Source of the DNA: Pestalotiopsis fici W106-1
Taxonomy: Eukaryota; Ascomycota; Sordariomycetes; Amphisphaeriales; Sporocadaceae
Direction of reading: 5' to 3'
Assembly (NCBI RefSeq): GCF_000516985.1
Contig: NW_006917092.1
Location: 124,001-188,000 of the forward strand
Length of the DNA: 64,000 nt
Shown: positions 15,741 to 44,475 of the stretch, in pieces
Layout: each line of letters opens with the position of its first letter
How positions within the stretch are numbered: the stretch's first letter is position 1
Translations under genes and position numbers: made by a program
The notes under the pieces: generated by a model
What the model was told of the DNA's origin: nothing
What the model saw: the letters and a program-made list of their open reading frames with translations, nothing else
The model's database searches: none

Positions 15741-16457
15741 CGTGATGCAAGAGGCGAAATCAATCAGGAAATCATGTGCAAAACAAGTCTATTGATCAAT
15801 AACTCAATGCTCAATTGCCTATGAACTCTGTTGCAGTTTTTGACTTTCAAAATGTTTTGAAAGAATATCGAGCAATCACTTGCCGACGGATAAGAGTATG
15901 CGATGGAACGACGCATTCATTCCATTGCGCCCGTTACTGTTGTTGCAGAAATTGGGGGATGAAACAAATGAAATGAACTCTCTGCTGCAGCCTGCTGTTC
16001 TAGGATTAGATACGCCAAGCAGAAGTGGATTTGTCAGTGTGGATCACTCGCAGGTGCAAATGGTTGGTGATGCGTCGGATCAGCGCCGATGTTTTCCCTC
16101 CGACGGCCGATAGTCGAGGGAGCCGACGGATGGTGCAATCTCATGCAATCTTGTCGTGACCACGGAGCGCCACACCTCCCACCACCAAATAGCCTAGAGC
16201 TGCGAGCTACGGGCGCAATGATAGGACAAGATGCCCTCCTGGGTGGATTAACGACGTCGGTGTTTATGTTCTAATCCGTGAGCCGTAGCCGGCCACCTCT
16301 GGGATCTGGGATCTGGGAGCTATGTGCCATCGACATCATAACCTCCAATGCCCAGCTTTACTTTTCTCACCTGAAAAATATCAATGACTTGAGCATAACT
16401 AGGCAGTGTGCCGTTGCAGCTTTCTTGTGGACAATCGTCGAGACACAACTGCTCAAA
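15741..16457. promoter_or_regulatory. divergent promoter region, AtuA-like and MDR genes
   Basis: A 717-bp spacer between divergent starts. An open frame runs from 16278 into the reductase, so a longer N-terminus for that gene cannot be excluded. No clear sites seen. Confidence 0.5.
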
Positions 16458-22414: not shown

Positions 22415-23254
22415 CTAAGCAGCTTTGACGACAATACAAGCCTCACTTAATGCGACTTGTAGTTTCTCGGCAATCGTTCTTGAGCCGGGGGTGTCTGCAT
22501 GAAGGCATAGAGAATCTGCAGCAAGATCAATCCACTCGCCATCCTCCGCAAGAACACGGCCGCGTAGAATAATGGATATTGCTTGCTCCACGGCTTCTTT
22601 AGCATCCACGATCAGGGCGCCAGGCAGCTTGCGGTTGAGGATTCTGCCATTGATATCATACCGCCTATCTACATAGGCTTCTCGGATCACGCGAATGCCG
22701 CATCCGCAGGCAGCCTCAATCCCCTTACTTCCCGCAAAGATGACGAGGGCCATGCTACTGTCCACTTGAAGCATGGCGCGAGCCATTGTAATGGTCACTT
22801 CTGGTTTGTAGGCAACATCGAATGCGAGCGCGCCGTGGCATTTCACGGCCTGGATCTGAGTCCCCGCAGCCTTTGCCAAAGCGCAGACACTCCCCAATTG
22901 GGATACGAGCACAGAAAACAGTTGGTCATTGTCGAGATTGCTTGGTGTTACCTGACCGAATCCGAAAATATCTGGATAAGACGGGTGCGCCCCTATTGCT
23001 TTGCCCATGGCGACCAACTCGTGAATGGTTTGTGCCATGACCACAGCGTCGCCTGAGTGGCCACCACAAGCAACGTAGCCAGTTGACACTATGTTGAGCA
23101 GCGCCCCATCTTGTCGTGGTGTTGTATGCCGAGGGTGCAGCTGTAGACCGGCCGAGTTTTTCAATGTACCAAGGATGTCAAGACTCAAACCACATGGTGG
23201 AAGATAGAAAGATTCGCCGAGCTCGGTCGCCAGATCAACGGAACGCCGCGTCAT
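22415..23254 (-). CDS. LamB/YcsF-family protein (5-oxoprolinase subunit A-like)
   Basis: Intronless 279-aa member of the LamB/YcsF family, whose bacterial form PxpA acts with PxpB and PxpC in ATP-dependent 5-oxoproline cleavage. Visible marks: DLATELGESF (family D-x-N-x-D-x-G-E region), ACGGHSGDAVVM (usually A-C-G-x-H-A-G-D), GAHPSYPDIFGFGQ, QLGSVCALAKAAG and VKCHGALAFDV. These fit the metal-binding barrel of the family. No PxpB/PxpC partner is seen here, and eukaryotes normally use a single large 5-oxoprolinase. The lack of introns among intron-rich neighbours is compatible with transfer from bacteria but does not prove it. The reaction in fungi is unestablished. Confidence 0.9.
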   Translation of the reverse strand: MTRRSVDLATELGESFYLPPCGLSLDILGTLKNSAGLQLHPRHTTPRQDGALLNIVSTGYVACGGHSGDAVVMAQTIHELVAMGKAIGAHPSYPDIFGFGQVTPSNLDNDQLFSVLVSQLGSVCALAKAAGTQIQAVKCHGALAFDVAYKPEVTITMARAMLQVDSSMALVIFAGSKGIEAACGCGIRVIREAYVDRRYDINGRILNRKLPGALIVDAKEAVEQAISIILRGRVLAEDGEWIDLAADSLCLHADTPGSRTIAEKLQVALSEACIVVKAA

Positions 23255-24064: not shown

Positions 24065-26402
24065 ATGGCGTCGCATTTGACTCAACCCGCGCCTAAGGCT
24101 GGCGAGACTGCCATCATAGAACCGAAGCCCGAATCTGCTATGTATATTGATGCATCACGGACGGAATTGTCGGTTGACTGGTCTGCAGCAGAAGAGCTGC
24201 GCGCCATCCGAAAGGTGGATTTCTTCATCCTGCCTCTCGTGATGATGGGATTCTTTAGCCTGCAGATTGATCGTGGCAACATGTAGGTCCCCAATATCTC
24301 TTTGGCTGAATCTTATTCCTCGGTCTTGTATTGATTCAATGTCACACTTGGTTCAGATGAGTTGGCTAATCTGCTCTTGCATTGATTAGATCTGCTGCAT
24401 TGACAAGCGGCATGCGTACCGACCTTAATATCACACAGAACACCATAAGCAACGGCCAAACAATCCTTTATTTGTGCATCCTGCTCGGGGAGCTCCCGTA
24501 CGTCCCATTCTCAAAAGTGAAAACTTGAGTCCTCATTTTGTCTTCTTGCCGGCCCCAATCTTGTGATGGATGCAGTCTAATCTTTGTCTTATACGCTTTG
24601 AAGATCAAATCTTGTTTTGCAGCGTGTCGGCGCCAAATTCTGGCTGCCTTGCCAGAGTAAGTGGTGGTTTTTCATGCCTGGTCCTACCCCTGCTCTACAG
24701 CCCTAAATATGATCTTGGTAGCCAGTATCATGTGCTAATTAGCCCTCAGTGATTGTATGGGAATTAGTAGCGACAATTCAGTGCGTCATCACAAACCAGA
24801 CCGGTTTCTACGTGTGCCGAGCGTTCTTGGGACTTGCAGAGTCTGGTTTTATCCCTGGGGGTGTTTATTACATTTCGACCCTTTCTACTCGCCAAGAATT
24901 TGCTAAAAGGTAAAGTAATAAAAATAAACGCAAAACAGAAAGTGAAGCATGACAGATGCAGAGAAAGGAGGGGAGTCAACTGTCTTCAGAATTCCATCAT
25001 GCTCTGTTCCTATGACTTGTACCTATCTATCGCTGACTTTTTAAAAGGGTCGGGTTATTCTGGATCGGAAATTACATCGGCAAGGGATGCAGTGGGCTTA
25101 TTGCTGCCGGAGTTCTCTCTTTAGGAGACGTGAGAGGCTTTGCTACCTGGCAATGGCTGTTCTTTAGTATGTGCTCCTGTCCGACAAACGACCAATTTGA
25201 CCCCTACTACCTATCTGTTTGGTGATGCTAATCAACCCGGCAGTTGAGGGCATGATGACATTGTTCATCGGTGTCCTTAACTTATTCTTTTTTCCTCGAT
25301 CGACTGAAGATTCGAGAACACTCATTCCAGGCCTTTGCATCCTCACCAATCGACAAGAATATATTTTGACCACCCGATTACTGGTCGATAATCCCTCGAA
25401 GAAAGATGCCCAGAAAATAAAAATCTCGCTTCAAGATGTAGCCAAGGCTTTATCCAACTGGCGTATTTACTTGATTCTTGTTTTTGCCCTTGCGTGGACA
25501 GCGCCCGTTTCGACTCTTGAAACATACAATGCTCAGATCGTGACAAGTCTAGGCTTCAGTACAATCAAAGGCAATGCTTTGAGCAGCGTTGGCTATTGGG
25601 CTCAAATTCCGATCATCTTCATTTGTGGCTGGTTTGCGTAAGTTCAATCACGACCCGCTAGGCATATTATCCATCCAGTTACTATTCGAGACCTATCACA
25701 GACGTGGAGGCTCATTACTGATATTATAGTAGTGATCGATTCGATATACGGGGTGTGGTCATATTCTGTACCGCGATTCCATTCATTGCCTTTTCAGCAG
25801 CATTCTACTATTTAGAGACTCTGGATAATGTGTACATCTGGATAAAGTATGCCATCTTTCAGATGATGGTTGCCTTTACTGGGTCATCCTGTAAGGATCA
25901 TATACCAATCATTGTTCAGTGTGCCAATGGCCTTGAAGCTTAACTCACTTTGCGTTTAGATTTGATGGGAATCGTTTGGGCGACCTTGAATTCACGAACG
26001 CCAACACAACGAAGCATTTATTCCGCAATGTATATCATATTTACAAATGCTGGGGTAAGTATTATCTCTTTTTTCTTAACATGAACGCAAAGCCGAATAG
26101 ATCGGTTCTGACATGGTCGTTATTAGCAAGCAATCGTAGGCCAAATATTCCGTCAGAGTGATGCCCCAAAATATCTTCAGGGAATGATTGCTGTATTGTC
26201 TTTAGAATCAGTCGCTGCTTTCCTCGCGCTTATTGGTATTTTGGTCTTTTGGTACTCTAACGAGAAAGGATTAGGCGAGACAGGTCTTCCGGATTTGAGT
26301 GCCGAGATTATGTTGCCCGAAGAGCGCGGGACTGAGTCGAAAACGCCCAAGAGCACGGCTGGAACGGTAATTATTCATGCACCATTTAGATATGCACTTT
26401 AA
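24065..26402 (+). CDS. MFS transporter, anion:cation symporter (allantoate permease-like)
   Basis: Plasma-membrane permease with the usual 12 membrane segments. Ten exons keep phase: 24065-24282, 24390-24497, 24576-24585, 24623-24656, 24750-24909, 25048-25166, 25244-25637, 25730-25890, 25960-26054 and 26127-26402; 524 aa. Typical Dal5-family segments are KVDFFILPLVMMGFF, DRGNISAALTSGM, FYVCRAFLGLAESGFIPGG, WIGNYIGKGCSG, the long central loop before NWRIYLILVFALAWTAP, and NAGQAIVGQIFRQSDAPKY. Exon 3 is only ten bases; skipping it would shift the frame. The C-terminus PFRYAL reads through a possible donor at about 26366, so the tail is uncertain. The family carries carboxylates such as allantoate, nicotinate or biotin precursors; here the substrate is probably the cluster's food molecule. 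Confidence 0.87.
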
Positions 26403-26648: not shown

Positions 26649-28768
26649 TTACAACTTGGCACCTGCCTTTCTTCTCCTCTCCTTCTCTCTATCCCGGAGA
26701 AGTCTCCTCAGGATTTTGCCACTTGGGCTTTTGGGTATCTCGTCTAGAAATTCTACTCCGCCTGTGATTCTCTTGTAGTGCGATTTGTGATCTGCGACAT
26801 GCTTCATGATGGCTTGCGCAACCTCCTCGTCTGGTTTGTTCTTGAATTCCGGCGACTTGACCACAAACGCCTTGGGAACCTCTCCGCTAGCATCGTCGGG
26901 GGTCTGAATGACTGCACAATCAGACACGGCGCTGTGTGCTAGAATATGTGCTTCAAGCTCCGCCGGGGCAACTTGGTGACCCTATGACAGTTAGCAGTCG
27001 TCTGTGAAACACATTCAAGCCGAAACATACCTTGACCTTGATCAGCTCCTTGATCCTGTCGACAATGACGAGATGCTCATTGCCTGCGGCTGACTTGGTG
27101 ATCACACCCTCGTCTCCTGTCTTTACCCACCGACCATCCTTGTCGTGGATAAAGGTTTCCGTCGATGCCTTTTCGTTGTTCAAATATCCAAGCACTGCGG
27201 CAGGAGATTGCACCAGTATCTCTCCGGGTGAGTCGTGCTTGGTCACTTCGTTGCCCTCGAGGTCGACAATCTTGACTCGGACGCTGGGCAGCAGTGAGCC
27301 GGATGACTTGTTCAAAACGTCATGTTCGCTAGTAGAGCTGACAACAACCGCTGTCTCCGTCATACCTGTGCAAAGTCAGCAAATGCCATATTCAAGCTAG
27401 ATGGGAAATGAAAGGCTTACCGTATGCCTGAGCAATGGTCCATTTGGGGTAAATCGCATTGAGCTCCTTGATGGTTTCCTCGCCCAGTGGTGCAGCTCCC
27501 GAGTATACGAATCTCACACTGCTCAAATCATACTTGCTACAGCAGTCCTTCATCTGGATCATGCGGATAACAATAGGCGGGACCTAAGAGGATTAGCAGG
27601 GCTATACGTGAAGGAAGGCCAAAAAGTCTTACAATGACGAGATGTTCGATTTTGAAGCGCTGAATCGCAGCAAGGTACGTCTCGAGCTCGAACTTGGGCA
27701 AGACAATAATCTCATCACCACGCCAAGGAGCCGTATGAGAAATGACGATGAGACCGTAAATGTGACTGAAGGGCATGAGGCCCAGTTCAACCTGGGTAAA
27801 AACTCCACGTTGTTTCCTAGCTACCGACTCATATGTAGCGTGTTGCAAGATGTTTGCAATGACATTTCTGTGTGAGATCATGACCGCTTTCTATTGACAT
27901 TTAGTTTCCTATCGAGGCACATGAGTGTTGGCGTCGATTGTCACATACCGGTAATCCTGAAGTGCCACTAGAGTAGCAGAGGAAAGCAGGTTGTCGTGCA
28001 CCTTGGCCTTCTGTCCATGACAAGGACTCGAGTTCTGGTAGATGGCTTCCTTCCGAAATGAGCTCTTCAATGCTCTGGAACGGAACTTTCTTCTCATTGC
28101 CCACCATGGGTATGATGAAGATTCTGTCATTTGGGATGCCGCTTGCCTTGGCGGCTTTGAGTGCCGTGTCCAAAAGTGGTACGCATGTGAAGAGGACTTG
28201 CGCCCCTGAGGATTTGAGCTGATGCGTAAGCTCAACATCTGTGTATGCTGCATTGGCAGGAGTAGCAATTCCCGAGAGTCTGTGGATGGAATATGCGACG
28301 GGAATATAATCAATCTACAAAATCCGTCAGCAGCGCACATTGTACCGGTAGGGCTGAATCAACCGGGTCTGGTCCCTCGTTGGGGGAGACTAATGCAGGT
28401 GATTGAAAACTTACCGTGTTCAACGAGAAGATACTAATAACCTTGTCCCAGCAGGTGCCCTCATTTGGCAGCCAAGCCATCTTCTTGCTGAGGGCCCTAG
28501 CGAGACATTCTGATCGCTGGAAAAAGTCATTGGTCGAGAACGACCGCCCAGTCAGGCCGCACGTGAAAGGGTTACGACTTTTCGAGATTGGACATCTTCC
28601 GTACTTTTCATTGCTCATAAACTCTGAGATTGTGATCGAGTCTGGGGGATCTGTGACGTCGTTGCTGTCAGCGCAAGGTTTGGCCGGATGCAACCTTGTG
28701 CGGGGATTTTGGACTAACCAATGGGGAGCTGTGGCACCCAACTTGGAGGATAAAACACCATCTTGCAA
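26649..28768 (-). CDS. acyl-CoA synthetase / 4-coumarate-CoA ligase-like, peroxisomal
   Basis: ANL-superfamily enzyme that activates a carboxylic acid to its CoA thioester through an acyl-adenylate. Seven or so exons. The P-loop LCYSSGTSGLP is joined to KAVMISHRN across an intron. Other marks are LMPFSHIYGL, FVYSGAAPLGEETIKELN, AYGMTET, GRWVKTGDEGVI, VDRIKELIKVKGHQVAPAELE and the C-terminal catalytic lysine region IPKSPSGKILRRLL. The last three residues are AKL, a PTS1 peroxisomal import signal. The start at 28768 (MQDGVL) is the first in-frame ATG; the next 30 residues may contain an unspliced intron from a GTTAGT donor. The gene converges on the MFS gene. It would feed peroxisomal beta-oxidation with the acid released after oxygenation and hydrolysis. 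Confidence 0.92.
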
Positions 28769-29453
28769 AGAAATCTGTCGACCTAAAATTTGTACTACAA
28801 GTGCAAAAGTTGAGACAGAGAACGGATCGTGGGATGAATTGTAGATTTGCAGCTTTTGAATTGATGACAGAAATGGAGCACAGATATGTTGAGATATCTA
28901 TTATTCAATCAGGATGACTTACCGCGGGCGTGGGCGGTTGTCGGCTTATCAGTCATGGATCTGATGCTCGCAATTCCGCACACGATCGTGACCTAGAACG
29001 CCCAGGGCGGTGCCTGTTTTCTGTGGGTACTTTCAGATTCCGCACTTCATGACTCGTCACCCGCGGGTGAATGTTCCCCATGATCCGTTACCCCAGAATG
29101 CCCCCAAATGCCCCTACCGAGAGAATCGTCAGAGCTTCAACATTTGTCCGTCCACTCCACACACTAAGCCTGCACGGGACTACCGAGGAGTAGGGCGGAC
29201 TTACCGACATCATGCTTTTCCTGCCCAGTTCCGTCCTCAGTCTCTGGCATGTCCACCACCATCGATGCTAGCACGACGCGGGGGCCGGGGCCATTCCCCA
29301 GCAATAAAAGAAGTGGAATCTTTGCATTGTGACGCCCAATAAATTGCCAGTTGATGCCAATCTCGTCGCACTATTTCCATTCAAGAACGGAATCATTCCG
29401 GATCCCCAGCATACCTAATTCACCAGTGCCCGGGGAAGCTCTCACTAGTCATC
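28769..29453. promoter_or_regulatory. divergent promoter region, CoA ligase and alcohol dehydrogenase
   Basis: 685 bp between divergent starts; no supported gene. GC-rich CCCC/GGGG blocks at about 29080-29300 could bind regulators, but this is only a suggestion. Confidence 0.5.
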
Positions 29454-30914
29454 ATGGAGTCGAAAATTCCACAGACCATGTTTGCATGGAGAAAGCACAG
29501 AGGAAATCCACAACCTGTAAGTTGGATTACCAAAAGGTGCAATGATTGGTCTAATAGAGTGAATGGGTCTGGGAAGAAGTGCCTGTTCCAACCACGCCTC
29601 CGACTGGCATCTTGTGCAAGATGCTTGCCTCTGGAGGTGAGCAAGACCAATAATCAGTGAGGGAAAAATAACACGCTGATGATTAAAGTCTGCCGATCCG
29701 ATCATTCTTTGCTTACTCTGGAGAAGCAAGCCTCGTGGTTTCAAGAAAAATGGATAATGGTAATATTGGGCCTATGTCAAGCTATACCATGCTTTCCAAG
29801 GCTAATAATCTGGTCAGGGACATGAAGGCTGTGGACGAATCGTCCAAATTGGAGACGGGGTCAAGGACACAACACTTCAAGTGGTGAGCCAAAGCATCAT
29901 ATATTGAATTTGTGTATTAGTCAAGAAATCGGGCTGACCATTCTCCAAGGGCGATGTCGTCGCCTTGCACGCGGTCCCAGGATGTGCTATGCCAGACTGT
30001 CCAGAGTGCTCCCGAGATCTAAGTCAAATATGTGAAAGGGGACACCACTCTGGTATAGGACAGGACGGATTCTATGCTCCATATGCAGCCATTGACATCC
30101 GTAGTGCCGTCCTTGTGCCACCGCAAGGTATGGTGCACGCCAAGTCTACCCTCTGTCTAGGATTTTCTAGCGTTCCGCAATTGTGACTGGGGAGACTAGC
30201 GAGGCAGAGCACTGACATGAATCAGGTATTACTCCAGCAGAGGCGGCAGTAGCCACAGATGCAGTCACAACAGCATATCATGCTATCCACCGTCGGGCTG
30301 AAGTCAAAGCCACAGAAACATGTTTCTTGTTTGGACTTGGGGGCTTGGGATTTAATGCCCTGCAGATTGTCCACAACATTGGTGCAAGAGTTATCGTGTC
30401 CGACATCAAACAGGATTGTCTTGACGCAGCTGCAAAGCTCGGGATTCCAACGTCTGATATAGTGCCGCTTGGAAAATCCCCTCAAGAATTCGTACTCGAA
30501 AATGACTTGAAGATTGACACTGTGCTAGATTTTGTTGGAACGCATCAAACATTCGAAGATGCACAACAAATTGGTGGGTGATTGACTTTGTTCCCCCTTC
30601 TTCCACTTGAGCTTACGAAGAGTCCATCGCTAATGATAATTGACAAAACAGTTCGTCGTGGAGGAAAGCTCTTGTGCGTTGGAAGTCTTGATACTGAAAA
30701 CACAATCCACATGAAAATTGGAACGAGGAAGAGACTGAGCTATATCTTCTCCTACGGCGGTCAAGTCCGAGATCTTAGAGAGGTGCTCCAACTGATTGCG
30801 AATGGAACCATCCGCCCTCAGGTCCAGCCTGCGAAGTTGAAAGACTTTCCTGATATACTACAAAAGCTGGAGGAGGGCAAAGTCGCAGCTCGTGTTGCTC
30901 TTATTCACGATTGA
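29454..30914 (+). CDS. zinc-dependent alcohol dehydrogenase
   Basis: NAD(P)-linked medium-chain alcohol dehydrogenase with catalytic and structural zinc. Seven exons; every splice join keeps phase. Seen in order: MESKIPQTMFAWRKHRGN, catalytic ligand region GVCRSDH, GHEGCGRIV (second ligand histidine and glutamate), the structural-zinc cysteines in CAMPDCPECSRDLSQIC, the cofactor loop GLGGLGFNALQI followed by VIVSDIK, and the C-terminus VALIHD. The acidic D after the second Rossmann strand favours NAD+. It diverges from the CoA ligase and ends 65 bp from the convergent BVMO. The likely role is oxidising a secondary alcohol to the ketone used by the BVMOs, an inference from the family and neighbours. 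Confidence 0.92.
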
Positions 30915-30979
30915 GCACATCAGACTTCAGTTGGTGTAGAGACTTGGCGCTAAATTGTCTATCGAAATATCTTAAGGCT

Positions 30980-32651
30980 TCAAGCAAGTACAAAATCAGA
31001 GTAGTGTCTCGACTTGACCTCGTCGCAGCGTTGTCTATATCCAGGAGCCGGGCCGTTGTACCTAGTCAGCGACCGCTTCTGCTTGTGCGACAAATTCTTG
31101 TTTACACCCGTCATCCATGAATCAACCTCATTGGCCAACAATCCTTTGCCACAATCTTCGACGTGTTGATACCACTTGTTCATGTTCTCTTGCGTGGCCT
31201 CCACGAACTGGATATTATTATTCATAGCATATTGGATAAAGTCGGCTGTCCAATTGACAGCATACTCGATGCTTCGCGGAATATTGCCGAACATTTGGTG
31301 AGGTCCCATGATCATAAACATGTTGGGGAAATCCTTGACTGTCAGTCCGAGAAAGGTCTGTATGCCGTGACTCCATGTTTCCCTGAGCTTTGTCCCATGA
31401 AGCCCCTCGAAATCGACGGCGTTGAAAGATCCAGTCACTGCATCAAATCCTGTTGCATAGATAATGACGTCAAATTCAATGTCTTCATCCTTCGTCTTGA
31501 TGCCGGTTTCTGTGATCCGTTCTATGGGGTTTTCATTGACGTCCACAAGGCGGACATGAGGCTCGTTGAATGCCTCATAATATCCACTTTCCAAGGGGAC
31601 TCGTCGGGTACCAAATCCATGATTTTTGGGGATCAACTTCTCCGCCGTGGCAGGATCCTTGATGCGTTGGCGGATTTTGTTGGCATGAAATTCGCTATAT
31701 AGGCGATTGGCCTCGCGATCTGTGGCAATGTCCTTTGACACACCCAAGACTTTGGCAAAGCCTGGCAATTGGTACAGCTTTTCCCAATGCGCAAAGAGCT
31801 CCTCTTTTGAGATATCTGTGGTCTTTCGTGAGTCGCCAACGTGGATGAAGCAAGAGTATGACTGTAGACATTGTCGAAAGATTTCAGGATAGCGTGCCCT
31901 GATCTCCACCATCTCAGCGGGGCTGATCTTGGTGTTGCGCAATGGTGCCGTCCAATTGGGCGTTCGCTGGAAGACGGTCAAGCTTCCCACCGTCCTATAA
32001 ATCTCTTGAATAGTCTGGATAGCTGTAGCACCGGTGCCAATGATGCCAACGCGTTTCCCCTCCAGACTGGAGTGGTTATCTGGCCATCTAGACGTGTGCC
32101 AAGATTGACCCTTGTAGTCGTTGACGCCGGGTATAGCGGGCAGGGTTGCCTGGTTGAGAATGCCCATTGCTGTTACTAGGTATCGGCTCTTGTATGTGTT
32201 GCCATTCTCATCCGTCAGTAGCCAGTGATTTCCAGGACTTTGGAAGTAGCCAGACTTGATCCTGGTGCTAAACTGCATGTCCTTTTTCAAGTCAAACTTT
32301 TTGGTGAGAAAGTGGATATAGCTCAGAGTTTCGGCTTGGGGTGCAAAATGCTCGGTCCAATCCCACTCGTCCAAAACCTCTTGCGAGAAAGAAAAAATAT
32401 ACGAGTAGCTTTCCGAATCGAATCGTGCACCTGGGTAATGATTCCTTTCCACACATATCAGCCACGCATCGAGAGACGGACGGAAATGCTCACCAATACC
32501 AAGTCCCACCTTCAGCTTCTCCTGCTTCCAGCAGCTTGACTCTGAGTCCCAGCGCTCGAATGCGCAAGAGTGAGTAGATGCCACTCAACCCACCGCCAAT
32601 GATGAGGACATCGTAGTCCAAGCTTTCATTAGCTTTTTGAAATGCAGACAT
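30980..32651 (-). CDS. Baeyer-Villiger monooxygenase (cyclohexanone monooxygenase-like)
   Basis: Type I flavoprotein monooxygenase. Exons 32494-32651 and 30980-32444, with a 49-bp intron; 540 aa. The N-terminal exon gives DYDVLIIGGGLSGIYSLLRI and GGTWYW, joined to NHYPGARFDSESYSYIFSF. The NADPH Rossmann motif is GIIGTGATAIQ. The fingerprint reads Y-K-G-Q-S-W-H-T-S-R-W-P, with Y in place of the usual first F. D-V-I-I-Y-A-T-G-F-D closes the FAD domain. Length and motifs match single-domain cyclohexanone/cyclopentanone monooxygenases, without the N-terminal extension of the other two BVMOs here. The intron removal is what fixes the start at 32651. It is divergent from the BVMO at 33367. Confidence 0.94.
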
Positions 32652-33366
32652 TGTTGAATTTACTGGATATCATTTCTCTGTACCTAGTCAGGATGTGGGA
32701 TTGTTGAAAACGAAGGCATTCAGACACCTACATCTGCTTCAAGGCCTTGGTGATATACTTTGGCGGCTGGTGAGCACTGGAACCAAGCTCAGGCTATGCG
32801 TGACTGCGAGTACACATCTGGTGGCGCATGGCTTCGTGGCAATAGAAGCTAGCCGCCGCCCAGCTCCGGGTCATTATTCCCATCTCGATGCCCCAGAATC
32901 CAAGACTGATACCCCACAAGATCTCGGCTTCCCCACTGCCGAGCATTGAGATCTGCTGGCTAACCATACTTGGCATGCCGAATACGTTGGTTGGCATATA
33001 CCGAAACGACTATGCCTTCGGTAAACGATTTCTGGCAATCGCCAGCGCTCAATCAGGAAACCAGATTTGTACAACGGGATTGATGTTCCCTTGCAAATCG
33101 ATTCATCATGGATGCAGCATTGTGAGATGACGGAGATCCTCGGCCCATCACACAAATGTTTACCCGCACTGAAATCATAGCTCGCAAGATTGTCGTTCCA
33201 GTCGCCGAGTTGTTGTGCAGGATGGTGTTATATCAACAAGACTAGTTTCAGGAGCCAGTCTAAATATCAATCATCTAGTCAAGTTGATACCCCTTGTTGT
33301 GCCTTATCATAAGCATTGTTCTCGTCTGATCAAGGCGATATCAGTGGGGCAGTACGAACATCAAGC
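32652..33366. promoter_or_regulatory. divergent promoter region between two BVMO genes
   Basis: 715 bp between the starts of two monooxygenase genes; no supported ORF. Likely a shared control region. Confidence 0.55.
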
Positions 33367-35359
33367 ATGACGGCATTAGTAGAGACTCCATTGTCAGCCG
33401 AAGACGTGATGTCTACAATGCGACATGCTCCCGCATCTGATGGGGAAATCCCACGTCTCGAAGTGACGGATTTTGCAGACGTCTTTCGAAGTTCTCGGGC
33501 AGTGCATGCTATGCCGCCAGAAGTCCGCACGGGTGAACCAATAGCAGATGATCCATTCAAACTCTCCTCGGATTATGCGTATACGCCACGGAAACTGAAA
33601 GTATTCACCATTGGTGCCGGGTTCTCTGGCTTACTCATGGCGCATAAATTCCAGCACCGCTTTCCAGAAATGCGGGACATTGTCGACCATACAATATTCG
33701 AAGCTTTGCACGATGTTGGTGGGACTTGGCTCGTCAACAATTATCCGGGCGTCCAATGTGACGTTCCAGCGCATATATATGTACGTCGACTGAGATAATA
33801 TTCTCACAATAAAAGCTTCCTTGGCCGCATAAGAAGAGCTAGGTACTGACGGAATTAGGCATTTCCGTTCGACCCAAACCCTGATTGGCGTCGCTTCTAT
33901 GCCAGCGGTGCCGACATTCTTGACTACATTAAGAGAACTGTCAGGAAATGGAATCTGGATCGTGATCTTAAACTGAACACGAGAGTTGTCGGCGCGCAAT
34001 GGCAGGAAGCCCTTGGACAATGGAAAGTCACCGTGGAACACGAGGGCACGCAAAGAGAAGAGTACTGTCATGTCCTGATTTCCAGCCAAGGGGTGCTTGT
34101 TCATGAAAACTGGCCCAGTGTCCCTGGCCTCCGAGATTTCAAGGGACAAATCACACACTCGGCGCGATGGGACCACAGTTACGACTACTCGAACAAGCGG
34201 ATCGCAGTCATTGGAAATGGTTCGTCTGGAATCCAGATCGTACCCCAAATGACCAAGCTCCCAGGCACCACGGTCAAGAACTTCATCAGGGGCCCAGCTT
34301 GGGTGTACTATCGTGCTCCCCCATCCAAGCATCTTGGAAGGGACTTTGATGATCCCAACCCCGAGTACACAGAGGAAGAGAAGAAAAAGTTCCAGGACCC
34401 GGAACAACATCTCTTGCATCGCAAAGGCATCATCTCAAGAACCAACAAGTCATTCTACATCTTCATGAAGGGAGAAAATAATAAGGAAGGCATGAAACTA
34501 GCTGCGGCGCAGATGGCCGAGAAGTTGAATCACGACCTGGATCTGTGCCAAAAGCTGATACCCACGTGGGAGCTTGGCTGCCGGCGTATCACACCAGGAC
34601 CTGGATACCTAGAATCATTCCTCCAGCCAAACTGCCACTTGACCAACAGTCCGATTACCAAGGTGACCGAAAATGCCATTCATACAGCCGATGGCGAGGC
34701 GTTTGAGTGCGACGTTCGTAAGTATATGTGACATCACCGAGTATCGATGTGCATAATGCTGACTATGACTAGTCATTTGCGCAACGGGATTTGACGTGTC
34801 GCACCGTCCACGATATCCCCTTGTTGGCTTGAACAAGGAGACGGATTTGCGAACGCAATGGGCTGACGATCCAGAGTCGTACATTTCCGTGGCCATTCCC
34901 GAGTATCCCAACTACTTCATGATGATGGGGCCCAATTGCCTTGGTGGTCACGGCTCACTGGTTGAATCCTTGAACTGGACCGGAGACTATTTCGTCAAGT
35001 GGATAAAGAAGATGGCGACCGAGGACATCAAGTACATTCATCCAAAGAAATCGGTGACCAAGGCTTTCATAAGGTACGGTGATGAAGTCCACAAGACGTT
35101 GGTCTGGACGGGCAACTGCAGCAGCTGGTACAAGCGAGGCAAGGTCAACGGCAGGGTGACGGCGTTGTTTGGTGGCAGTGCGCACCTCTTCCACCGGATG
35201 CTCAGCGAAATTCGCGCCGAGGATTTCGAAATCACCTACAACACCGCAAACCCCTTCAGATTCATGGGCAATGGGTTCACAGCGTTTGAGATGGATGAGA
35301 GTAGCGATCTCTCGTGGTATGTGGAGACAGCCGAGGTGCCCGAAAGTGGGATCGAGTGA
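33367..35359 (+). CDS. Baeyer-Villiger-type monooxygenase with N-terminal extension
   Basis: Type I flavin monooxygenase. Exons 33367-33780, 33859-34717 and 34773-35359; 619 aa. An extension of about 75 residues precedes the FAD motif KVFTIGAGFSGLLMAHK. Then come GGTWLVNNYPGVQCDVPAHIY/AFPFDPNPDW, the fingerprint F-K-G-Q-I-T-H-S-A-R-W-D, the second Rossmann motif IAVIGNGSSGIQIV, and LICATGFDVS. The W-D ending and the extension are typical of 4-hydroxyacetophenone monooxygenase-like fungal enzymes. The ATG at 33367 is the first in the frame. The C-terminus is complete. It is the last gene before the assembly gap, so whether the cluster continues without interruption is unknown. Confidence 0.93.
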
Positions 35360-35475
35360 TGGAAGTAATCTAGAAGGAGATGCGGCATGCGGGATCATCA
35401 AGGTGAGATCATGACTTACATATCTAAAGCATATGCGAGCGAGCTGAACTCATATGCATTTTCACAAGCTAGATA

Positions 35476-35487
35476 CTAGGTACCTAG
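35476..35487. repeat. 12-bp perfect palindrome CTAGGTACCTAG
   Basis: Reads identically on both strands. It is one instance of a CTAGGTA/TACCTAG motif that recurs in intergenic parts of this window. Confidence 0.75.
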
Positions 35488-35662
35488 ATACATAGGTAGA
35501 AATTCGTGCCAGGGGAGGTGCGAAACAGGCTGACTCGGATCATATCGTGTCGTTTGAGGACTTTTTCCATCTTTTTGCAAATACTGACATGCATGAACAA
35601 TCTTGTTCCAATGAAGTCGTTAGACTTAGACTTTGATGAAATCGAGCCGTTCAACTGTTCGG

Positions 35663-35762
35663 NNNNNNNNNNNNNNNNNNNNNNNNNNNNNNNNNNNNNN
35701 NNNNNNNNNNNNNNNNNNNNNNNNNNNNNNNNNNNNNNNNNNNNNNNNNNNNNNNNNNNNNN
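35663..35762. other. assembly gap of 100 N
   Basis: Exactly 100 unknown bases, a standard placeholder length, so the true gap size is not known. Confidence 0.98.
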
Positions 35763-35805
35763 GTACTTAGTACTTTGTATGTAAATACGACGCCGTTCTA
35801 CTGTC

Positions 35806-35807
<2 letters not shown>

Positions 35808-35842
<35 letters not shown>
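35808..35842. repeat. poly-T run (T35)
   Basis: Thirty-five consecutive T, 45 bp from the N-gap; a probable cause of the assembly break. Length may be inaccurate. Confidence 0.9.
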
Positions 35843-36522
35843 CCCTGCGTTCTGTCTGGACTGCAATGTTCTCGGTGGCTGTACGCTTTTTAGGCTTGTA
35901 GTTCTAGACGAGTCCATTGGGGCTAGGCAACCTTCGGCGAAAGACGGCCACTAGACAGACAAGTGAAGCTAACTGAGCCCCTAAACTGATAGTTTACAGC
36001 CCTGGAGAGACGCACCTGGGCAGTGCTAGAGCCAAAGCTCCCTAGAGACGTCACTTGGTCGTATTGTGTTCAGCGGCCCAAGTCAAGCTTGGTTCAGATG
36101 AAGATGGATGGAGCTCTAAAGACTCTGTATTTCGCAATCTTCTAACAGTGATAACTGATCTGTCGCCCCTGCATGTGCAAGTGTGTTACGTTTGGAATCA
36201 TCGTCCAGAGTCAACAGCTGTGTGGCCACCTGCCTAGGAGCTTGTTGCCACTAAAGTATTTGCGGCAATATCCCCCTTGCGCATTGCAGGGAGGCTGCGT
36301 TGGGTCCGTCGGCGCGGGGTCTGGGGAGAATGCGGGGATCGCTTCAGGGACTCCAGCATTATACCAGGTCTCCAACTACCCACCTAGGTAATCACCTAAG
36401 TGAACAGCTTACATACATCGAGCTCATCCTGAGCGACAATCCATCGATAGTTCCGTCCTTGAGCCTCCCTGTTTGTTAAAATAGGGGCCCTCGAGTGGTG
36501 AGAGTCAAGAAGTCACGAGAGG

Positions 36523-38505
36523 ATGACGGAACATATCGGCGAGTGGCTGCTCTTTGATCACAACCAGCCAAAACGGAAACGGGCAGAATTGGTCTGCTCT
36601 GCTTGCCATGGCAAGAAAATCAAGTGTGATTTGCAGAGCAAAAAGGACAGCCCGGGAGATGGAAAATGCACAAACTGCCGTGCAGGCGGCAGAGAATGTC
36701 GTATAAGGCCATCAAAGAGGAGAAGAAACGCAAACCATGGCGTACAACAACCTCAACACGCTCGACCGCCTCCATCTCCGTCGTCGGCCGACGAAACACG
36801 CACCGAGTCTGTTGTGTCACATCCTCAGTCATCTGGAAGCAATCCACCTCCCCGTGATAGTCCAAGGTCTCAGCGAGACAGTGGGCTGCAGATCATAAAA
36901 CCGCCAATAGCTTTGCACACCAGCAGAAGCAGTCCCACTGATGTCGATACTGGGTTTCTGCAAATTTATGGTCCTGAGAATCAGTACGATGCGCAACAAC
37001 AAGAGATGAAGGCTACTGTAGACCGTGACCACAACTTGTCTGGGCCCCGGCAATTAGAGCTTTTGCAAATATTTGCAGAAACTTACATCGACTATGTGTA
37101 CCCTTGGTGCCCAGTTCTGGATGTGGGCACTATCCTAGAAGACTGCTTGCGCTCTCCTCTGCTCGCCAATGCCATGGCGCTTGCCGCAAGCCATATACGC
37201 CCACCATTGATTCCTCATGAAGGACCAGCCAACTACTACGACAAAGCTCGAAATATGTTTTACAATGACGAAGAGGCCGACGGCGTGACTACATTACAAG
37301 CTGTATCGCTCTTTTATTGGTGGGCTCCACGTCCTCCAACGGTCGCACACCGACACTCGTCGTGGTGGTGGACATCGGTGCTTATTCGACATGCTCAGCA
37401 GATGAACTTTCACCGTGAGCCGACTCCTCCTCAACCTGCTTTGGTTGGACCGGTACTTAGTCTCCGGCGTCGAATATGGTGGACCGCCTTTGCGCGAGAG
37501 CGCCTCACGGCCTTGTGTCAGAGCAAGCCCAGCATCATTGATCCTCTAGACTGCAACATACAAGAGCCCAGTCTCTCTGATTTTCCTCCAGAACCAAGAA
37601 TGCAGCGGAAAGGAGAGATATTTATCGCCTGGGTCCGTCTTTGTGGCATTATTGGTGACATAGCCAAATGTCTTTCCCGATCAAAAATGGAGCAAAGCTC
37701 TCCCTTTCCTACACACCTACGGCAGAAACTCGTGGACTGGGTCCAGTCGCTGCCTCCACACCTGCAGCTTCCCATCGGATCTCAGACGACAATAAACTTT
37801 GATCGCGATGTGCATCAATTATATCTGCCTTACCTCACAACAATTGTCATACTCCATCTCAAGCGTTCCGCTCAATCGCTGCCACAGGCGCTTCCTCCAG
37901 CGATACTAGCAGCTTCTTGTATAGCCCGGATTTTACGCGACATCTTGTCCCGGGGCGACACTCGGTTTTTAATGGCCATTACTTGCTGGTATTCCGGTAC
38001 TGCATTTATTGCTCTCCTACAAGCCAGCCGGATTGAAGGATTGTGCCAAGAGGCAAATGCCGATTTGGATGTTTTAACAAATTCTGCCAAACAGTTGCAA
38101 CGCATGTGGGGATCCGCAAATATCCTGTGTCAAGGTTTCGACCGGCTAAGAAGCCAAGCTGGACCGACTGGCGGTGAAAAACCTGGCCAGCCACTGACCG
38201 AGGACTCTCGTACTGCCAACTCCAATCTTGGGGATGACGCATCAACTGTGGACGGGACAGATAGAGACCTTGAGAATAGTGGCGAGTTTGACTGGACAGC
38301 TCTGTTTCCTACTGTCACAAAGGCGACAAATCGAATAGCTGCAGCACTCCTACCTGGCAAAGAACCGGGAGCAGCAAGGACACGGTTCCCGTCGCCAGAG
38401 AATACATCATTCCATGAGACGCTCATGACCGAGTATCAAGACCTATTCGAGCCGTTCGCACAATTCGATCCACTGGATTTCCTGAATCTCGGACTGGCTG
38501 AATAA
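36523..38505 (+). CDS. Zn2Cys6/Fungal_trans transcription factor
   Basis: Single-exon 660-aa nuclear regulator. The zinc cluster has cysteines at 25, 28, 35, 49, 52 and 59 (C-x2-C-x6-C-x13-C-x2-C-x6-C), with the basic stretch HGKKIK between; the 13-residue middle loop is longer than usual. It is preceded by KRKR and followed by PSKRRRN, likely nuclear import signals. A proline/serine-rich linker leads to the Fungal_trans domain, with YIDYVYPWCPVLD, ALAASHIRPPLI, ISLFYWWAP-like text and RRRIWWTAFARERL. This layout resembles regulators of fatty-acid and cutin use (CTF1/FarA type), though not closely enough to name. It lies tail-to-tail with the MFS gene at 38885. Confidence 0.92.
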   Translation: MTEHIGEWLLFDHNQPKRKRAELVCSACHGKKIKCDLQSKKDSPGDGKCTNCRAGGRECRIRPSKRRRNANHGVQQPQHARPPPSPSSADETRTESVVSHPQSSGSNPPPRDSPRSQRDSGLQIIKPPIALHTSRSSPTDVDTGFLQIYGPENQYDAQQQEMKATVDRDHNLSGPRQLELLQIFAETYIDYVYPWCPVLDVGTILEDCLRSPLLANAMALAASHIRPPLIPHEGPANYYDKARNMFYNDEEADGVTTLQAVSLFYWWAPRPPTVAHRHSSWWWTSVLIRHAQQMNFHREPTPPQPALVGPVLSLRRRIWWTAFARERLTALCQSKPSIIDPLDCNIQEPSLSDFPPEPRMQRKGEIFIAWVRLCGIIGDIAKCLSRSKMEQSSPFPTHLRQKLVDWVQSLPPHLQLPIGSQTTINFDRDVHQLYLPYLTTIVILHLKRSAQSLPQALPPAILAASCIARILRDILSRGDTRFLMAITCWYSGTAFIALLQASRIEGLCQEANADLDVLTNSAKQLQRMWGSANILCQGFDRLRSQAGPTGGEKPGQPLTEDSRTANSNLGDDASTVDGTDRDLENSGEFDWTALFPTVTKATNRIAAALLPGKEPGAARTRFPSPENTSFHETLMTEYQDLFEPFAQFDPLDFLNLGLAE

Positions 38506-38884
38506 TGATCAGCCGGAAAAACGCGTTGATAACAGCGGTATGCTGTGCAATATATTTCCACAAGGTCCCTTGATGGGTATATGATTGATTGGTTTACTAG
38601 CAGGCATGAATCATAGAAACCCTCCTGTGTATGATACTATCAAATAATTTGCATTCATTGATGTGAAACTTTAGCCGTTGCTAGATGCCAAACTTGATTA
38701 TTCCAGTAGGCTGCAATCATGTCGCTCAAAATCTGCACCAAACATTATTCGAAGCTATGAAAGTGTCTGCAAATATAGAATATTTACTGGAAGTGAGACC
38801 AAGAGAATCACAATATATAACGAAATTGGGGATTCTGGTCACCAGATATTAGTGATTCAACTGCGAAGGGCTACTTGAAGAAAA
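38506..38884. other. 3' region between convergent genes
   Basis: 379 bp, AT-rich, no gene; probably the two 3' untranslated regions. Confidence 0.5.
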
Positions 38885-40499
38885 TCATACCTTTTTGTCT
38901 GTAGAGTCATCCTCATACGCATGGTCGTAACCTTCCAGAATGCCCGTCTTGTCTCGTCTATGGTTTGTCCACACACAGATGAATCGATAAAAAATGATCA
39001 ATAGAGCGGCAGCAATGGACGTAATAACCACAACAACAAATCCAGGTCCGTAGCGTGGTGCGTCCTGGGAGTGAAAGGCCAAGGGGCCGGCAAAGTTGCC
39101 TGTAAAGGTTTAGCAAAGCCCAGGAGACCGTTGCGAATAGTATAACTTACCGAGACAATATCCAATATATAAGCTAGCTGAACTGATTGATCTTTTTGTA
39201 TATCCGGCAGTATTTGCAACTGATAGAGACATGAGAACAGCGTAGCCGCCGCCCACAGATGGTAGGATAGTTGTGGCAAACAATAGGCCACCTCTTTCAG
39301 ACAAGGGCAGTAGCCAGAGAAGAAGAGCTGCGAGGGTTGTACCCATTTGCGCAATGAATATGATGTAACACCTGGCTTTCGGAAGTTTCATGGCCAAGAA
39401 TGGCATCAAAAGCTGGACGCAGCCAGCGTAGAATCCGGCGGGGATGAGTAGGAGCAGAGAGTTTAACGTGCTAAAGCCAAAGCCATTGATGATGATTGGG
39501 ACAAAGGTCGAAATCGGGCCATTGGCAATCATGGAAAGCAAGGCGACGGAGAACAGAAGCCAATTCTTGATGTCCAGGAGCAGCTCAGTGACTTGATCCA
39601 CCTTGTAGTGTGTATTGCGCACACCCGAGTTGTTTGTTCTCAGTCGGGCGACTAGAATATAGCGCTCGCGCGGTCCGAATCCCTTGGCTCGAATGGGATC
39701 GGACGGAAGGACAAAGTACAGGATCAAGCCCCAGGCAATAGTGAGACCGCCAGAGAAGTAGTACATGTAGCGCCATGACGAGACACCGCCGCCGATCTGT
39801 CCAAACCCAAAATTTATCAAGGGTGAAATACAACTGACATATCCAGTGCAGCTATACCATATACCCATTCTCATTGCCTGTTCATGTTTCTTGTACCACG
39901 ATCCGACGATAAGCATAAACATGGGGCTGATGCCGCTTTCCAAGACGCCGAGGAAGAACCGCTGCGCATATATGTCTCGATAGTTGTGGCAGACCGTCGT
40001 CAGGATAAGGCACAAGCCCCATAGGATGACTGTTGCGGATGCCACTCGCTCGATCGGAAATCTCTGGGCAAGGACCATCGAGGGATATGCGCCCGCGATG
40101 AAGCCAAGGTAGAATATAGATGCTGTCCAGGAATAGCGGTTGCCTGTCAAATCCAGCTCAGTTCGCAAGCCGAATAGTGCCTGTAGAATCATCTTGATTA
40201 GAATAATGGACGAAAAAAGCACCGAGTCTTCAGCTCCTTACGGCCTGCGATAACATGGCTTTGTCATAATACTGGAGACAATATGTCATGCAGAGGACTG
40301 GCATTAGCCTCCAGTCAATTTTGCGACGCAATTTGTCTTCTTCAGCCTCATTCCAGTGTTGATCTCCATCGTGGTTAGCCAAGACTTGCAAAGCCTCGTC
40401 GTCACGTAGAGTGTCGACTGTTTGAGTCTTCTTGATGGGATTGGCAGTTTCTACTTGCTCAGCCATCTGCGTAGCGTCTTTCTCGCTTGTGTCAGACAT
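38885..40499 (-). CDS. MFS transporter, anion:cation symporter (allantoate permease-like)
   Basis: Second permease of the Dal5-type family. Exons 40242-40499, 39151-40180 and 38885-39099; 500 aa. Features are the acidic N-terminus, KIDWRLMPVLCMTYCLQYYDKAMLSQA, ALFGLRTELDLTGNRYSWTASIFYLGFIAGAYPSMVLAQRF, ARRFFLGVLE-like FFLGVLESGISPMFML, RMGIWYSCTGY, and the C-terminal ILEGYDHAYEDDSTDKKV tail. The exon 1 join puts A at the end of S-Q-A directly before the first loop. Plasma membrane. It has fewer introns than the paralogue at 24065 and differs in sequence, so the two are not a recent duplication. It may import a carboxylic acid or another polar substrate of the cluster. Confidence 0.92.
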
Positions 40500-41419
40500 G
40501 ATTCAAGATTGGAGCGATTACAAAATCAATCAAAGATAGAAGCGGGTTTCTGAAAACTCGCCCGACATAGGTGTACGAGTCCTATCTCGGATTGAGAGGA
40601 TTGATATATGGTCGAATAGCGTTGCCCGTAGTATTGGTACGCTAGGCAGAGTAATGTTATTCTTCTACAGGCATAGTCAACTATACTGGCAAGTGGGGTC
40701 AATCATGGGGAAATCTGGGGAGTTGGGGATTCCTGGATCATTCAGCTTCATTCGCGGAATTGTTCTTGGCAGATTGGAGAGGCGACATCACTCGCGTGCT
40801 GTGTGCTCTTAATGCATCCTGAGTTCGCCTGTATACCTGGGTAGGGGTCCGGGCTGTATTGAGCAAGGACATTGCATTTGATCAGCTATTCCAATATTCT
40901 TGGGCCACATCATCATAGCCGAATGTCCTGTCGCCACGCCCGTGTCAATCGATAGCCGTCGAGTCTGGATACCGAAAAGCAGAGGGTCTAATCCCAAAAC
41001 AGCCTTTACCGAAATACCGAGATTCGCTACGAGAGGAATTAAAGGGACAGCCGACCGGGATTATTGTGCTATCATAATTGTTTCTCAATAGTTGGGAGAT
41101 GATGGGGGTGTGGATGGGGATATCCGTTGTATGACAATTCCCTATAGCATCCACGTGTTCCCCCGCCACACTAATTTTTTTAAAGCCAAGTCAGCTTGAC
41201 AGGGTGTGCCAGGTTACTGGGCTCCCCACACACAAGTGGACGACCAGGAAGCGAGGATTGGATGCCAACATTGATTATACTACCCCCCTGGCTTTCCTTC
41301 TGAAGAGCTGATATAGCAATGGGAGATGTGACTTGGGTGAATAGCAGTTTTACAGACACTCAACAAGTCTGATCATCCAAGCGACCATCAAAGACTGCCT
41401 ACCAACCTATCTAGACAAT
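40500..41419. promoter_or_regulatory. divergent promoter region, MFS and MBL-fold genes
   Basis: 920 bp between divergent starts, no supported gene. No clear core element seen. Confidence 0.5.
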
Positions 41420-42617
41420 ATGGCAGATGCTGTATTAGGGGTGGAGTTGCCAGCAGGGCAGCAGACAATCATTGTGAAGCTCATCAATCCGGTCAATTTT
41501 GGGCCAGCAATACTGAAACGCTTCATGACACCGCCTGTACCGGGACTAGAGACTTTTCCTACGTCGCCATCGCACTCCTTTCTCTTGGAACACCCATCAG
41601 GCCGCAAACTTGTTTTTGATCTTGGCATCAGAAAAGACTATCAGAATTATTCTCCCCGAATCGCAGCCTACATTCCGACCACTAAATATCATATTCAAGT
41701 CACAAAGAACGTGGCCGATATCTTGGAAGATGGAGGTATCAAGCCCACGGATATTGAGGCTGTCATTTGGAGGTAATCCCTGTAAGAGTCTCGAGACAAG
41801 AGACAAAATTCAATACTTACGTGAGATTAGTCATTGGCATTGGGATCATATCGGCGACCCGTCATCTTTCCCTTCAAGCACCGATTTGGTAGTAGGCAAG
41901 GGTTTCAAGGAAGCAATGCTGCCTGGAGCTCCTGCCAATCCCGAGAGCCCGATACAAGAAAGCGATTATGCGTGAGTGTTTCAAAGAGCTCAAATTTGAG
42001 AGTTCGCTTGACTGATAGTTTACAGCAACCGCGAGCTTCGTGAAATCGATTTTCAAGGTCCTCGCACTCTGAGAATCGGACGTTTCCCAGCGTATGACTA
42101 CTTTGGAGATGGATCATTCTACTTACTTGATAGTCCGGGACACGCAATTGGTCACCTATGTGGCTTGGCTCGAACCACGACGAGTCCAGACAGCTTTGTC
42201 CTTCTAGGCGGTGATGTATGTCACTATGCCGGCATCTTTAGGCCATCCAAGTACCTCCCGGTACCTGCTTCAATCAAACCTCACCCTTGTAAGCCCGAGA
42301 GCAGCTTACCGCTGTGTCCGGGTCATGCCTGGGAGGATTTACAACATTCAAGACAACGTAGCCCTACGGACACTCTATTCGACATAACTTTTGGTCGTGA
42401 CATCCCTTTGGCGAAACACACGGCAGGAAAACTGCAGGAACTGGATTGCCTCGATAACGTTTTCGTCATCATTGCTCACGACTCGACCGTGAGGGATGGA
42501 GTACCACACTTTCCTGAAAGTTTGAATGAGTGGAAAGCCAAAGGTTGGGGGGAAAGCCTCAAATGGTCTTTCTTTAGAGATCTAAAGCCAGTTTGGGAGT
42601 CTCAAGGGTTAGCATAG
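41420..42617 (+). CDS. metallo-beta-lactamase-fold hydrolase (lactonase-like)
   Basis: Zinc-dependent hydrolase of the MBL superfamily. Exons 41420-41772, 41831-41971 and 42026-42617; 361 aa. The metal motif is made by splicing: the first intron ends directly before S-H-W-H-W-D-H-I-G-D (H-x-H-x-D-H). Downstream ligands fit LLDSPGHAIGHLCG (histidine) and VLLGGDVCHYAG (bridging aspartate), and IIAHDST gives a late histidine. The arrangement suits the AHL-lactonase/AiiA-like branch rather than beta-lactamases or glyoxalase II. Since the BVMO products would be esters or lactones, ring opening is an attractive role, but the substrate is inferred from context only. The closest fungal relatives also occur in secondary-metabolite loci. 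Confidence 0.9.
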
Positions 42618-43341: not shown

Positions 43342-44475
43342 ATGCCACTCCCACGGTACGAATATACTGGGCCAATAGACCACACCATTGTGCCTGACCG
43401 TACACAGGCGCGCGGAAAGTCTGTTGTCATCACTGGTGGTGCAAATGGCATGGGCGAGACATGTGTTCGTGACTTCGTGGCGGCCGGAGCATTTGTGACG
43501 TTCGGAGATGTTAATGACCGAGGCAAAGAGATTGAGAAAGAGCTCAATGATACAAATGGCAGAGTCGTCTGTACGTTTGTCCATGTGGACATACGCGACT
43601 GGGACCAACAGAAAGCCATGTTCGAGACGGCACGCAGTAAAAGTCCCAGCAACAGCGTGGATATCGTGATTGCAAATGCAGGCATTAGTCGAAGTTCTGG
43701 GGATAGCCTTTGGAATCTGGATGGTGCGTCATAACTCGGGCATGCTTCAGCTATAGATGAATCAACTCACATACTCGTCAGACCCTGATGGAGAACCTAC
43801 AAAACCCAACCTCAATATCATCAAGGTCAATTTGGAAGGTTCGTTGTATACCTGGAAACTTGCCGTACACTTTTTTCGAAAGCAACCAGATACGCCGGAG
43901 CGCGATCGATGTTTCATTATCACTGGAAGCATGGTAGCTTGGATTGACTCACCGGTAAGTACGCACACCACCTAGGTCTACATAGATTCTTATATTTTGA
44001 TGACTACAGGGCAACTGGGAATATACAGCGACCAAGTACGGGCTACGGGGATTTATGCGTACAGCGAGGCGCTCAAGTTGGGAACAAGCAATCAGAATCA
44101 ATTACGTTGCACCGTGTTGGATCAGAAGCGCCATACGTACAGCCGAGTACGAGAAATGGCTCCTGGACAGAGGTGTTGAGTTTGGGGAACAGGAAGATGT
44201 CGCCAATTGCATGATGCGGATTGCGTGCGATAAAGGGATCAATGGTAGGCCGCAATCTTGAAGTCTTCTAACGATGAAACGCTGACCACGGGAAAGGACA
44301 TTCGCTCATGATAACACCGCGCAGTATTGCAGAACAAGGTTTCATGGACGTAGACAGAGATGACTATCAGGATGATGAAAAGGACGCATACATGAAGAAG
44401 ACCCAGGCTTCGCAGCTGACAATCATTCAAGACAAATGGCTTGATGACTACAAAGTTAGGATCTACAAGGAATAA
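43342..44475 (+). CDS. short-chain dehydrogenase/reductase (classical SDR)
   Basis: NAD(P)-dependent oxidoreductase. Exons 43342-43723, 43782-43954, 44010-44244 and 44297-44475; 322 aa, phase kept throughout. The cofactor loop TGGANGMG (residues 31-38) is followed by F-G-D-V-N-D, where the aspartate favours NAD(H). Catalytic set: N in IANAGIS, S in IITGSMVAW, and Y-T-A-T-K split off by the third exon (YxxxK). The C-terminal extension after N-G-H-S-L-M-I-T-P is about 45 residues and hydrophilic. Similar to 15-hydroxyprostaglandin dehydrogenase-like fungal SDRs that oxidise secondary alcohols. It could supply a ketone to the monooxygenases. Confidence 0.92.

Follow-up and report, generated by a model that had tools for sequence, protein, structure and literature searches.

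The stretch analysed here, referred to as the window, comprises 64,000 nucleotides of the Pestalotiopsis fici W106-1 genome (contig NW_006917092.1, hereafter C2, positions 124001-188000) and contains a set of genes built around Baeyer-Villiger monooxygenases (BVMOs) that spans about C2:148,000-168,500. The genome amounts to 51.7 Mb in 20 contigs, and the left-hand contig end is 124 kb away from the window. From left to right, the genes encode a major facilitator superfamily (MFS) permease (MFS1, +), a CoA ligase (-), a zinc alcohol dehydrogenase (ADH, +), BVMO1 (-), BVMO2 (+), a Zn2Cys6 regulator (+), a second permease (MFS2, -), a hydrolase of the metallo-beta-lactamase (MBL) fold (+) and a short-chain dehydrogenase/reductase (SDR, +). 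According to the gene models, six of these nine genes form three divergent pairs (ligase/ADH, BVMO1/BVMO2 and MFS2/MBL). The models were obtained with an in-house splice-aware finder and frame reading and checked against Pfam and orthologs; they are predictions from the DNA sequence. A sequence-only reading of the window had proposed a catabolic cluster at this site, and every gene that it named was recovered by Pfam or frame reading, with slightly corrected coordinates (given below as positions in the window).

BVMO1 (30980-32651, minus strand, 540 aa) and BVMO2 (33418-35359, plus strand, 602 aa, with a start that may lie at 33367) are type I BVMOs of different groups, scoring 45 and 62 bits, respectively, with the flavin-containing monooxygenase (FMO)-like profile (cut-off 22 bits). 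Type I BVMOs are recognized by the signature FxGxxxHxxxW(P/D) together with a first Rossmann motif, GxGxxG, and both proteins carry this combination. The BVMO motif reads FKGQITHSARWD in BVMO2 and YKGQSWHTSRWP in BVMO1, where the first position is Y in place of F; among the 120 best BVMO1 homologs, 67 have the F form and 47 the Y form. BVMO1 is 95% identical to protein P0001 of Neopestalotiopsis clavispora and 90% identical to a protein of Pestalotiopsis sp. 9143b. In a comparison that covered solved structures only, with enzymes such as CAMO outside it, OTEMO was the top match of BVMO1, at 460 bits vs. 451 bits for phenylacetone monooxygenase with the single sequence and 594 vs. 572 bits with the family profile. 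The identity to OTEMO is 41%, and its margin over phenylacetone monooxygenase is just 9 to 22 bits. The top solved-structure match of BVMO2 reached 179 bits. The gap separating the two gene models (32652-33366) could serve as a shared divergent promoter region.

The MBL-fold hydrolase (41420-42617, plus strand) is a 361-aa protein encoded by three exons (41420-41772, 41831-41971 and 42026-42617), with 88% identity to Neopestalotiopsis sp. 37M P0121 and a Lactamase_B score of 34 bits that was obtained on a truncated 260-aa model. The predicted structure model of P0121 is nearest to acyl-homoserine lactone (AHL) lactonases and 4-pyridoxolactonase and places the protein nearer in fold to lactonases than to MBL enzymes of other kinds, which bears out its earlier description as lactonase-like. 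MBL lactonases bind metal through HxHxDH plus a further H, D and H; these ligands (H119, H121, D123, H124, H204, D228 and H316) are invariant in 19 sequences including the window MBL, and HxHxDH is present in 115 of the 120 best homologs. In the matches to AiiB, GcL, AhlX, AiiA and 4-pyridoxolactonase, identity is 16-23%, and the MBL exceeds these enzymes by about 80-110 residues. When two peptide patterns were run once against genomes of bacteria and archaea, only five weak relatives came up.

To assess conservation of the gene neighborhood, BVMO1, MBL and the CoA ligase each served as the query against about 5.8 billion proteins, and the best 120 matches for each were kept. The linkage analysis used 85 named BVMO and 98 named MBL rows, the best row per organism being retained and organisms being matched by name; genes were considered to share a contig if they had identical longest-contig values, each of which belongs to a 90% protein cluster. 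BVMO1 and MBL shared a contig in 32 of the 37 organisms common to both lists, vs. 2.1-2.8 expected by chance, and on contigs under 0.7 Mb there were 12 shared cases vs. 0.14 expected. Where locus tags on one contig could be compared (14 organisms), the gap was a single tag in nine, 2, 4, 5 and 7 tags in four, and 347 in Elsinoe batatas. The five organisms in which no contig was shared are Exophiala viscosa, E. xenobiotica, Hortaea werneckii, Pyricularia grisea and Verticillium longisporum, those of E. xenobiotica, Hortaea and Pyricularia being comparisons across different assemblies. Furthermore, seven of the 120 BVMO1 homologs (P0013, P0029, P0041, P0049, P0056, P0063 and P0067; 858-940 aa) begin with an MBL clearly resembling that of the window. 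Because an internal methionine directly precedes the BVMO part in several of these joined proteins, they may be merged annotations of neighboring genes instead of true fusions, whereas P0013 and P0063, which have short linkers, could be genuine; whether merged or fused, the MBL and BVMO genes touch.

Linkage of the CoA ligase is narrower. With all 113 named ligase rows, among which lower-ranked matches may be paralogs, the ligase shared a contig with BVMO1 in 13 of 24 organisms and with MBL in 11 of 19. The 13 include Fusarium sambucinum, in which ligase and BVMO1 are 1563 tags apart and were not counted as linked, and the 11 include Neopestalotiopsis sp. 37M, in which ligase and MBL are 318 tags apart on a 340-kb contig. 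In Neoarthrinium moseri the ligase, BVMO1 and MBL (tags 2030, 2034 and 2039) follow the same order as in the window; the corresponding tags of Stylonectria norvegica are 7811, 7815 and 7816, and the gap between ligase and MBL is 8 tags in one Pyricularia grisea assembly. The sequence-only reading had named unrelated single insertions as the outcome that would speak against a cluster, and this does not apply to the core genes, given the linkage of BVMO1 and MBL in 32 of 37 fungi and of the ligase in a subset. Linkage is thus kept across species for this core.

The ligase itself (26649-28761, minus strand, about 577 aa) resembles 4-coumarate-CoA ligase (4CL) and phenylacetyl-CoA ligase, with 207 bits for AMP-binding, and is 98% identical to Neopestalotiopsis sp. 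37M P0241. Its start was set at 28761, where a short first exon fits the MVF-PPSWVP of 577-aa orthologs. A paralog with 54-70% identity by segment is found at C2:278 kb. The protein ends in AKL, and a C-terminal tripeptide resembling the type 1 peroxisomal targeting signal (PTS1) is present in 94 of its 120 best homologs, the Neoarthrinium entry being one without; no such end occurred in the best 120 homologs of either BVMO1 (0/120) or MBL (0/120), in a search that was confined to PTS1. Because of this difference we infer from the sequences that a lactone would be made and opened first in the cytosol, with CoA activation following in the peroxisome.

The sequence-only reading had also noted that a biosynthetic backbone enzyme is missing, and this held for the families searched: profile searches placed no polyketide synthase (PKS) match within the first 621 kb of C2, the nearest ketoacyl-synthase match being at C2:621,767, and no match to Terpene_syn_C_2, the one terpene-synthase family searched, within the first 5.0 Mb, the sole one on C2 lying at 5,024,210. 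Nonribosomal peptide synthetases, prenyltransferases and other terpene-synthase families had no profiles of their own in this search. Neither PKS nor the terpene-synthase family searched was thus found in or beside the cluster, and the lack of nearby backbone matches therefore favors breakdown over biosynthesis.

We conclude that the cluster is real and that its BVMO-lactonase-like core is conserved; its genes probably serve the catabolism of a ketone that is cyclic or bears a ring, and their role is most likely the opening of a ring ketone whose product feeds beta-oxidation. The compound would be taken up by a permease, and an alcohol would be converted to the ketone by the SDR or the zinc ADH. 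Oxygen insertion by BVMO1 would then yield a lactone or ester, BVMO2 could perform the same chemistry on another ketone or on an intermediate further along the route, and the MBL metallo-hydrolase would open the lactone to a hydroxy acid, which the peroxisome-tagged ligase would activate for beta-oxidation; the Zn2Cys6 protein presumably controls the gene set. This scheme draws on the gene content, the BVMO1-MBL(-ligase) linkage, the lactonase-type fold and conserved metal ligands of the MBL family and the PTS1-like tags, and from these the individual reactions, their order and compartments, and the membership of ADH, BVMO2, regulator, MFS1, MFS2 and SDR are proposed.

The genes surrounding the core bear on how far the cluster extends. 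The regulator (36523-38505, plus strand) is a one-exon gene encoding 660 aa (Fungal_trans 52 bits, Zn_clus 22 bits). The zinc ADH (29454-30914, plus strand, start read from the frames), divergent to the ligase, consists of several short exons with a low codon score; its hand-joined model gave 58 bits for ADH_N and 59 bits for ADH_zinc_N. MFS2 (38885-40499, minus strand) scored 113 bits with MFS_1 and 151 bits with the D-galactonate transporter family TIGR00893, under the family cut-off of 395. MFS1 (approximately 24065-26402, plus strand), for which many exons were joined by hand (MFS_1 98 bits), confirms the permease previously placed just left of the ligase, and its position suggests membership. 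Position likewise suggests that the SDR (43342-44475, plus strand; adh_short 93 bits) belongs to the cluster, and an SDR adjoins a BVMO at two further sites in this genome; to its right lie a histidine-phosphatase-like gene and a conserved CTNNBL gene.

An alternative that falls only somewhat short of an even chance is that the real unit is BVMO1 and MBL, joined by the CoA ligase in some fungi, with ADH, BVMO2, regulator, permeases and SDR being accessory genes that drifted in near the contig end. The BVMO1-MBL link extends beyond Sordariomycetes to Penicillium, Exophiala and Plenodomus, while that of the ligase is confined to a subset; the two core genes are about 9 kb apart here, and both the position of the window relative to the contig end and the conserved CTNNBL gene directly right of the SDR fit such a history. 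So do the promoters. No convincing motif common to the BVMO1 and BVMO2 promoters was found, and among five promoter regions compared for repeats of the CGG type and for 7- to 9-mers in common, one 8-mer occurred in four (mean 0.14 and maximum 1 in shuffled sequences), which we judged unconvincing. Against this alternative, the span that encloses ADH, BVMO2, regulator and MFS2 has ends that, together with BVMO1, map near one another in Neoarthrinium as well (tags 2030-2039), and the divergent pairing involves six of the nine genes.

It is unlikely that the genes serve detoxification without growth, disarming a ketone or lactone of plant or microbial origin. Many homologs come from genera that are presumably plant-associated, which would suit such a role; the peroxisome-tagged ligase indicates further breakdown. 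BVMOs of Grosmannia clavigera are filed under terpenoid detoxification in the excerpted text of PMC8120277. There, CMQ_6956 and CMQ_7007 are given as limonene BVMOs and listed as peroxisomal (citing Wang 2014), unlike the BVMO1 homologs listed here, which have no PTS1-like end; the likeness is that of fungal BVMOs tied to terpenoid use. Three genes of Aspergillus terreus (ATEG_10004, ATEG_10005 and ATEG_10008), which encode a BVMO, an aryl-CoA ligase and an SDR, are syntenic with a 3-hydroxyanthranilate cluster and upregulated by salicylate, as far as the available portion of PMC7842363 describes them. That locus resembles ours in having BVMO, CoA ligase and SDR near each other, a likeness of gene content, and differs in its 3-hydroxyanthranilate synteny and in that an MBL lactonase goes unmentioned in this portion. 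In view of these A. terreus loci and the limonene BVMOs of G. clavigera, the earlier statement that no such fungal cluster had been described was too strong (PMC7842363, PMC8120277, both in part). We found no description of a combined BVMO/MBL/CoA-ligase cluster in the open-licence literature, which is not proof of absence; the cluster is new in its gene set, and the kind of pathway is already known.

We are doubtful that the genes tailor a secondary metabolite whose backbone enzyme is encoded elsewhere, or that the MBL forms a lactone instead of opening one. MpaDE forms a phthalide lactone, and some of the MBL homologs are annotated as MpaDE-like. Paralogs of MBL, SDR and BVMO lie side by side at C2:659417-664213 (best segments 47% identical to the window MBL and 30% to BVMO1), and because a PKS match lies about 37 kb away from this set, sets of this type may serve biosynthesis too. 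BVMOs do function in fungal biosynthesis, as exemplified by MoxY of the aflatoxin pathway in the accessible part of PMC6315744. However, the C2 backbone matches are as distant from the window as given above, and two permeases and a peroxisome-tagged ligase suit uptake and beta-oxidation. Elsewhere in the genome, an SDR adjoins the closest BVMO1 paralog (52%) at C1:653-656 kb, and beyond this pair the opposite strand carries repeat-like open frames.

A camphor-like route, in which the ligase would act first and BVMO1 on a cyclopentenyl-acetyl-CoA-type thioester like OTEMO, is highly unlikely: OTEMO tops the solved structures, and alcohol dehydrogenase and CoA ligase occur as in the camphor route (PMC4097962, in part), but identity and margin are small, the neighboring luciferase-like monooxygenase (LLM) gene is of another family, no cytochrome P450 match was listed near the cluster among the 92 of 439 candidates scored, and a peroxisomal tag on the ligase with none on BVMO1 fits activation after the BVMO step. 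Because ligase and BVMO are predicted in different compartments, action of BVMO1 on a CoA thioester is disfavored. The Pseudomonas putida pathway (CamD dehydrogenase, CamF CoA synthase and OTEMO) is matched by an alcohol dehydrogenase, an acyl-CoA ligase and, in BVMO1, a type I BVMO with OTEMO as its top solved-structure match, whereas no equivalent of P450cam or diketocamphane monooxygenase was found in the window, and the cluster differs in its MBL lactonase-like enzyme, its peroxisome-tagged ligase and the distance of BVMO1 from OTEMO. In the camphor route, activation of the acid precedes the OTEMO step, the reverse of the order proposed here (PMC4097962, as excerpted).

Returning to the catabolic cluster, a bolder possibility, and a long shot in our estimate, is that BVMO1 and MBL form an undescribed ring-opening module across filamentous ascomycetes, with a cytosolic BVMO and its lactonase producing and then opening a lactone, a peroxisomal CoA ligase recruited in some lineages to pass the product on to beta-oxidation, and a plant cyclic oxo compound, e.g., a terpenoid ketone or jasmonate-type cyclopentanone, as the substrate. 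In the latter, the ring and acetic side chain resemble the OTEMO substrate. OTEMO converts cyclic ketones, terpenones included (PMC5225235, in the text available), and what BVMOs act on physiologically is widely unknown according to the excerpted part of PMC4498894. A BVMO that keeps a lactonase-like neighbor over long evolutionary distances offers a concrete handle, i.e., two enzymes that can be assayed sequentially and a gene pair that can be deleted. Should the substrate prove to be of plant origin, this would help to account for the use or disarming of ring ketones by many plant-dwelling fungi.

Further left, the Pfam scan showed the LLM, AtuA-like and alpha/beta hydrolase genes that had been noted before, and additionally a second zinc-binding dehydrogenase and YcsF. 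The LLM (19307-20989, minus strand, 369 bits) belongs to the NtaA/DmoA family, and its nearest solved structures are dimethyl-sulfide and alkane monooxygenases; because of these affinities it was set aside as a diketocamphane-type BVMO and excluded from the proposed pathway. The AtuA-family gene (13664-15788, minus strand) scored 272 bits from one exon, and the model extends past this exon on both sides. The third BVMO expected on the left was likewise recovered, its gene spanning the window start, and about 36-38 kb left of the window there is a fourth, which a Rieske-domain protein adjoins (about 36-40 kb left). When the 56 BVMO/FMO loci were randomized in 5000 genomes, two fell within 2.5 kb in 699, three within 35 kb in 189 and four within 73.5 kb in 19, at intervals picked after the data were seen. 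BVMO density alone is thus weak as cluster evidence for the pair and the trio; four in 73.5 kb are uncommon, on a post hoc interval. A YcsF/PxpA-like gene (22415-23254, minus strand) adjoins MFS1, and a hydantoinase/5-oxoprolinase-like model of 1319 aa lies left of the window at about C2:104.7-108.9 kb. These two genes possibly represent a separate set for lactam use, perhaps including MFS1.

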